Positions 18,091-18,543 of a stretch of 48,338 bases of DNA are shown here, one piece after another. The notes beneath the pieces are model-generated. The model ran no database searches, had not been told where the DNA came from, and saw only the letters and a list, made by a program, of their open reading frames with translations. The position numbers were made by a program, and so were the translations under genes. The DNA lies in assembly GCA_030041075.1 (NCBI GenBank), contig JASHOP010000031.1, positions 1-48,338 of the forward strand, in the 5' to 3' direction. How positions within the stretch are numbered: position 1 is the stretch's first letter; each line of letters begins with the position of its first letter. This stretch comes from Thermoplasmata archaeon (GTDB lineage Archaea; Thermoplasmatota; Thermoplasmata; Lutacidiplasmatales; UBA184).

Positions 18091-18130
18091 CGCCGGCCCC
18101 CCCCCCCGGGGGGGAATGCGGGGGGCCGGA

Positions 18131-18165
18131 GTTCCTGGCGGCCGGTCGAGGCGACCGGCCGGCCC
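18131..18165 (-). other. tRNA-Leu(TAG) intron 2, T-loop position 59/60, 35 nt
   Basis: GGGCCGGCCGGTCGCCTCGACCGGCCGCCAGGAAC contains the 9-bp hairpin GGCCGGTCG-CCT-CGACCGGCC. Flanking bulges AA|G and AC|T; central helix TTCA/AGGA with 3 of 4 pairs (one G-U). Confidence 0.85.
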
Positions 18166-18213
18166 TTTGAACCGGCGAATGCCCTAGGCAACAGGGTCCT
18201 AAGCCCTGCCTCG

Positions 18214-18240
18214 CTGACCCCGCCGCCGAGCGGCAGCGGA
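18214..18240 (-). other. tRNA-Leu(TAG) intron 1, D-loop position 21/22, 27 nt
   Basis: TCCGCTGCCGCTCGGCGGCGGGGTCAG. Inner helix CCGCTGCC/GGCGGCGG, central 4-bp helix GGCC/GGTC, 3-nt bulges AA|T and AG|C; outer helix weak, so a relaxed BHB. Confidence 0.8.
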
Positions 18241-18291
18241 TTGGCCGTGCTGGAGCACCCCCGCACCGTGAGCCTCCCATCGGAGGAGAGG

Positions 18292-18398
18292 TAGCCCCGG
18301 CAGGAGTTTCGGCCGGCGGGTCGCGCCCGGCCCGCGGCCTTCGAACCTGCGTCGCGAGATCCAGAGTCTCGCATGATTGGCCACTACACCACGGGGCT
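18292..18398 (-). tRNA. tRNA-Gln (CTG) with one T-loop intron
   Basis: Acceptor AGCCCCG (18398-18392)/CGGGGCT (18299-18293), anticodon arm CGAGA CTCTGGA TCTCG, T-stem GCAGG (18350-18346)/CCTGC (18304-18300). Mature length 73 nt with TTCGAAT T-loop after intron removal. Confidence 0.92.
18306..18339 (-). other. tRNA-Gln(CTG) intron, T-loop position 59/60, 34 nt
   Basis: Perfect hBHBh': GCAGG-TTCG-AAG-GCCG on the 5' side and CGGC-CGAA-ACT-CCTGC on the 3' side, i.e. T-stem, 4-bp central helix TTCG/CGAA, two 3-nt bulges, inner helix GCCG/CGGC. Cleavage AA|G and AC|T yields canonical TTCGAAT. Confidence 0.92.
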
Positions 18399-18543
18399 AC
18401 GGCGGCTCTTAGCTTCGCGTCGTTGATAACCGTTGTCGAGTCGGGGCGTCGTTTCCCGGACTCCGGGCCCGATCGACCGAGCTTCACCCGCCGGCCCATA
18501 TAGTCGAGCGAGGTCGGCGGAAGGTCCTTGCGTGGGAGGTCGC

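Follow-up and report, generated by a model that had tools for sequence, protein, structure and literature searches.

Organization of the tRNA-Leu(UAG) locus

The window analyzed here is a 48,338-nt stretch of contig JASHOP010000031.1 from an uncultured Thermoplasmata archaeon. A class II pre-tRNA-Leu(UAG) gene with two introns occupies 18117..18264 (148 nt) on the minus strand, which the preliminary description had left unspecified; its extent rests on an ARAGORN call for the spliced form and on about 30 congeners. Exon 1 (18241..18264, minus strand, 24 nt, from the orthologue alignment) begins with the 5' strand of the acceptor stem, ends at D-loop position 21 and is followed by a D-loop intron at position 21/22 (18214..18240, minus strand, 27 nt), which is missing at identical borders in one congener. 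Exon 2 (18166..18213, minus strand, 48 nt) comprises the D-stem 3' strand, the anticodon arm with the anticodon UAG at 18201-18199 (minus strand), the long variable arm and the T-loop up to position 59. A T-loop intron at position 59/60 (18131..18165, minus strand, 35 nt), delimited by its BHB pattern and the covariation of its inner helix, separates exon 2 from exon 3 (18117..18130, minus strand, 14 nt), which extends from position 60 to the discriminator A73 according to the spliced-form ARAGORN call and the orthologue alignment.

Removal of 18214-18240 and 18131-18165 leaves an 86-nt class II tRNA-Leu(UAG), and with CCA added this 86-mer is called by ARAGORN as a clean tRNA-Leu(tag). The acceptor strands (GCGGGGG and CCCCCGC), the 148-nt span, both intron intervals and the 86-nt product are thus all as the preliminary description had them. 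On the unspliced locus ARAGORN returned no correct gene and placed a wrong 88-nt tRNA-Leu, partly built of intron, at 18150-18237, and the Rfam tRNA model gave no match even at E<=1. An intron-tolerant template scan recovered the identical two-intron solution among its top ties; because the template annotator alone ties wherever loop sequence repeats, the borders were taken from the orthologues and the BHB pattern.

In the D-loop motif the central helix is formed by GGCC (positions 18-20a) and GGUC, with the bulges AA^U and AG^C. In the T-loop motif the T-stem serves as the outer helix, U54U55C56 pairs with GGA as the central helix, A57 and A(-6) face each other unpaired, and the inner hairpin is long. 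Three-nucleotide bulges around a 4-bp central helix had been described for both introns; this holds at the D-loop site, while the central helix of the T-loop site consists of 3 bp plus the unpaired A57.

A second interrupted gene on this strand, pre-tRNA-Gln(CUG) (18292..18398, minus strand, 107 nt), is located 27 nt upstream of tRNA-Leu and contains a 34-nt T-loop intron at 59/60 (18306-18339, minus strand); the 75-nt ARAGORN call in this region (18325-18399) is wrong. This Gln-Leu gene pair is kept in the congeners G029 (L206) and G023 and in G002 (L145). Immediately downstream of tRNA-Leu is a gene for a calcineurin-like phosphoesterase (PF00149; 17155-18090, minus strand). Directly behind the tRNA-Leu 3' end, positions 18098-18116 hold a C run and then a G run, which could be a hairpin or a weak spot of the assembly.

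Conservation and covariation of the two introns

The 148-nt gene was used as a query against 60 relatives, and full-length matches of 145-153 nt with 79-91% identity were obtained in about 30 of 36 congeners. In the same search, G024 gave two full-length matches and G035 gave extra short ones. The match in congener G023 lay mainly from position 46 on: its gene (L146) keeps the T-loop intron and is without the D-loop intron, and its D-arm, GGCCAA|CGAGG, provides a natural intron-less junction at the predicted borders. Because no base repeats across this border, the D-loop intron can only lie at 18214-18240. The tRNA-Leu(UAG) of several other members of the class reads TTCAAATCC and is without the T-loop intron. 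In another family of the class, the tRNA-Leu(UAG) of G050 (L143) lacks a T-loop intron but contains one of about 43 nt in the D-loop, which either was gained separately or is old.

Among 32 aligned orthologues, the proposed structure is paired in 88.4% of cells, and two-sided changes were found at 15 pairs, in 95 cells. In a shuffle control the cell count was reached in 0 of 500 cases and the pair count in 9 of 500, and sliding the partners left at most 57% paired, versus 88% for the proposed structure. All four pairs of the D-loop central helix are formed in 31 of 31 orthologues; double changes occur at six of the seven pairs of the D-loop inner helix and at nine pairs of the T-loop inner helix. 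The T-loop central helix has three of its four pairs, with A57 unpaired, in 32 of 32 orthologues, so the central-helix mismatch reported earlier is present but belongs to all orthologues and not to this gene alone. The D-loop outer helix, which had been described as not solid, is indeed interrupted here by A17 opposite A24, but this occurs in this species alone, and the other 31 orthologues pair CUC or UUC with GAG.

These data bear on whether the locus is a decayed tRNA pseudogene, as the failure of standard tRNA finders on it might suggest. A search for an intact second tRNA-Leu(UAG) found none in the same genome (G000, a MAG that is 89% complete), and in the 100%-complete congener G029 there is likewise a single copy. 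Moreover, the exons are near-invariant over about 30 species, while the intron stems change in a compensating manner. Decay is hence an explanation to which we attach next to no probability. The claim of two non-canonical introns at 21/22 and 59/60 is supported by the intron-less orthologue, conservation throughout the genus, covariation and the status of the gene as the sole tRNA-Leu(UAG) found in this genome.

Introns in other tRNAs and design of the T-loop splice site

The tRNAs of the same genome were surveyed with model searches and by reading selected stretches, starting from weak tRNA matches; a search with a T-loop sequence pattern was too loose (487 matches). By hand count, 17 of the 40 tRNA genes found in this 89%-complete MAG are interrupted, two of them by two introns, so that about 40% of tRNAs carry introns in the one genome counted. 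Complete T-loop introns at 59/60, all of one design, are present in 13 tRNAs: Leu(UAG), Gln(CUG), Glu(CUC), Asn(GUU), Arg(UCU), Arg(UCG), Ser(GCU), Ser(GGA), Ser(CGA), Gly(UCC), Asp(GUC), His(GUG) and Lys(UUU). A 14th case is tRNA-Ala(GGC), whose gene is incomplete at a contig end. D-loop introns occur in tRNA-Leu(UAG), tRNA-Lys(UUU), an initiator-like tRNA-Met and tRNA-Arg(GCG), with borders fixed for Leu(UAG) only, and tRNA-Leu(UAA) has one intron at the canonical place in the anticodon loop. The genes for tRNA-Leu(UAG) and tRNA-Lys(UUU) each contain two introns and are thereby multiple-intron genes. No tRNA-Trp, tRNA-Tyr or some other isoacceptors were found in this genome; they either lie outside the MAG or are hidden by further introns.

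To describe the T-loop site, 44 introns at 59/60 from seven genomes were compared. The T-stem is complete in 43 of the 44. U54-U55-C56 stands opposite GRR, with G at -5 in 42 of 44 introns; positions -4 and -3 are purines throughout. Position 57 changes together with position -6: G57 is opposite C(-6) in 21 of 22 cases, and A57 is opposite G, U or A(-6) in 22 of 22 (Fisher p=2e-11, a value that overstates independence, the sequences being related). Among the 13 T-loop introns of the genome analyzed, five with G57 have all four central pairs and eight have three. Since positions 54-57 pair and covary with the 3' end of the intron, the invariant TTCR forms one half of the splice motif, which suggests why 59/60 is favoured. 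In G038, a genome of the same order (L176-L186), nine of ten T-loop introns examined measure just 13-14 nt and lack an inner helix, close to the 11 nt cited for the shortest archaeal tRNA introns (PMC4090602). TTCA pairs with TGAA in the G038 introns, and several tRNAs of this genome have an apparent second intron, placed either at 37/38 or within the D-loop.

The T-loop intron of tRNA-Leu(UAG) would accordingly belong to a lineage-wide set in which the invariant T-arm provides half of the splice motif, with the T-stem as the outer helix, TTC(R) 54-57 paired with (Y/G)GRR at the intron 3' end as the central helix, and the intron hairpin as the inner helix. We consider it very probable, from the sequence comparisons, that the locus is a functional tRNA-Leu(UAG) gene present in one copy, and that its transcript is cut at the 21/22 and 59/60 BHB introns before the exons are joined. 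The splicing endonuclease EndA would cut both borders of each intron and RtcB would join the exons, giving the mature tRNA-Leu(UAG).

Folding predictions count against this reading. The minimum-free-energy fold of the whole precursor differs from the hand-drawn BHB fold (-88 versus about -67 kcal/mol), the central helix does not form when the T-arm is folded alone, and the D-loop outer-helix mismatch and the 3-bp T-loop central helix are further points on the same side. The inner hairpins are very stable when folded, as would suit a functional tRNA that keeps both insertions in enlarged D- and T-loops and is never spliced. Such retention would cost 14 different tRNAs in this genome their T-loop fold. 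It also sits poorly with insertions that end in a conserved GRR-NN|, which pairs with TTC and covaries with R57, with the exact absence of the D-loop insertion in congener G023, and with the presence of EndA and RtcB genes. We therefore regard permanent retention as very improbable and continue with splicing as the preferred reading.

The splicing endonuclease

The genome contains a single EndA ORF (C49:289-1353, L032, minus strand, 354 aa), as does congener G029, and one RtcB gene. Both Pfam EndA domains occur twice in the one chain (two tRNA_int_endo repeats), and the positions of the Y/H/K triad are invariant. An AlphaFold model (20 class sequences, mean pLDDT 92) is closest to the M. kandleri (5x89) and A. 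fulgidus (2gjw) enzymes, with query TM-scores of 0.74-0.77 against full A. fulgidus chains. With two repeats per chain and no further subunit ORF, sequence and model point to an alpha'2-type EndA.

Introns outside the canonical site have been described as having co-evolved with CSL or ASL loops in the enzyme (PMC4033280, PMC12397907). These were sought in the catalytic repeat, between YG and the xLSLxE helix, as an inserted loop that bears lysine. In the alignment with PDB chains, EndA shows no insertion at the place of the CSL in 3p1y, a chimeric A. fulgidus enzyme, and the seven residues that mark the ASL of ARMAN-2 (4fz2) are absent. The inserted loop is visible in 3p1y and 4fz2 only, no insertion is seen relative to wild-type A. 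fulgidus, and the other EndAs of the class that were checked are likewise without CSL or ASL. A conserved F.VxPRGG...KTPSxYW loop was found in the structural repeat; it is missing in A. fulgidus and can be aligned with the RGG...K..P of ARMAN-2, and any role for it is speculation.

The EndA relatives in named genomes come mainly from MAGs labelled 'Thermoplasmata archaeon' and include Candidatus Lutacidiplasma silvani AcS3-62, on which basis the clade was identified as Lutacidiplasmatales (Candidatus Lutacidiplasma, Thermoplasmatota). From the same relatives we infer the placement of the genome analyzed here and a setting in acid soil or mine drainage. Because it has a single alpha'2-type EndA with neither CSL nor ASL, the lineage appears as an exception to the usual enzyme-intron rule. 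One tentative and rather doubtful explanation is that the EndA of Lutacidiplasmatales is a broad-specificity alpha'2 enzyme that owes its range to a third route in place of CSL or ASL, with the PRGG...KTPSxYW loop as candidate, and that relaxed T- and D-loop introns could spread as a result, among them the 13-nt introns of G038 that have no inner helix.

The chances are about even, however, that the introns are spliced and the T-loop motif is canonical enough for an ordinary narrow alpha'2 EndA, with no unusual property of the enzyme. The motif has a 5-bp outer helix, 3-nt bulges and a central helix of 3-4 bp, which is complete with G57 in five of the 13 introns of this genome, and 59/60 could yield a canonical BHB in any tRNA. 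PMC6379350 cites removal of a BHL-type intron from full-length pre-tRNA by the homodimeric A. fulgidus EndA, and the Ferroplasma EndA, also a homodimer, cuts minimal BHB substrates (PMC8707768). Less easily accommodated are the eight of 13 T-loop introns with only three central pairs, the 13-14 nt introns of G038 without an inner helix and the D-loop motif here without a full outer helix. How surprising the case is depends on whether an alpha'2 enzyme would treat these motifs as canonical or as relaxed.

Comparison with known systems

The solved alpha'2 enzymes of A. fulgidus (2gjw) and T. acidophilum (2ohc) share the two-repeat chain, and that of A. fulgidus is also without CSL and ASL, but both appear in the literature as enzymes of narrow specificity (PMC6379350). 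Reviews describe euryarchaea that possess an alpha4 or alpha'2 EndA as poor in tRNA introns, with a single one per gene, at the canonical site (PMC4090602). Multiple introns have been listed for Crenarchaeota, N. equitans, M. kandleri, M. thermautotrophicus, Korarchaeum and ARMAN, among which Korarchaeum is the only alpha2 case and bears the specific loop (PMC4033280). A loop-less alpha'2 EndA in a family where T-loop introns abound and double introns occur thus makes the enzyme-intron rule directly testable in vitro.

ARMAN-2, with its epsilon2 EndA, resembles the present case in having non-canonical introns outside Thermoproteota (PMC12397907, PMC4033280) and in the alignable RGG...K..P loop of the structural repeat, but its enzyme contains a third unit as well as the ASL loop that is absent here. 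The Asgard Atabeyarchaeia and Freyarchaeia are likewise soil archaea outside Thermoproteota with very many introns, often non-canonical and multiple; they belong to another phylum, and the 2024 report gives introns in 92-95% of their tRNA genes, compared with 17 of 40 here (PMC11291895). The preliminary description's remark that multiple-intron tRNAs are rare outside Thermoproteota is out of date in the light of that report.

Multiple and non-canonical tRNA introns are known from Thermoproteales (Sugahara 2008; Fujishima 2010, as related in PMC4033280 and PMC8450103), where small BHB introns also lie outside 37/38 and some tRNAs have two. The crenarchaeal enzyme, however, is an (alpha-beta)2 EndA with CSL, in contrast to the fused alpha'2 form without CSL found here, and the introns here are mostly at the single site 59/60. 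Similar introns in different tRNAs were reported by Fujishima as transposition, according to these citing papers, whereas the likeness of intron cores between different tRNAs of our genome is barely above that of shuffled ones (mean 0.057 versus 0.024). A few core pairs exceed the 99th percentile of the null, but recent copying is not clearly indicated; transposition between tRNAs was consequently set aside.

Distribution of T-loop introns

The Lutacidiplasmatales paper used tRNAscan-SE 2.0.5 and leaves introns unmentioned (PMC9287336). Within the literature searched, which lay outside subscription papers and GtRNAdb, no description of this intron expansion was found; tRNAscan-SE 2.0 annotation of some of these introns may already exist. 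In MAGs of Lutacidiplasmatales, simple tRNA finders overlook such genes or place them wrongly. The distribution of T-loop introns was surveyed with a covariance model of the intron-containing T-arm, whose matches were inspected one by one only in the genomes read by hand; the counts are lower bounds, because the model finds 10 in the genome analyzed here, where 13 complete introns are known. Each of the 45 genomes of the family gave 5-11 matches, and G038 gave 10. In other families of the class there were mostly 1-4 matches where any occurred; 74 of 250 genomes gave zero, and in the wider phylum some families gave 1-5 matches.
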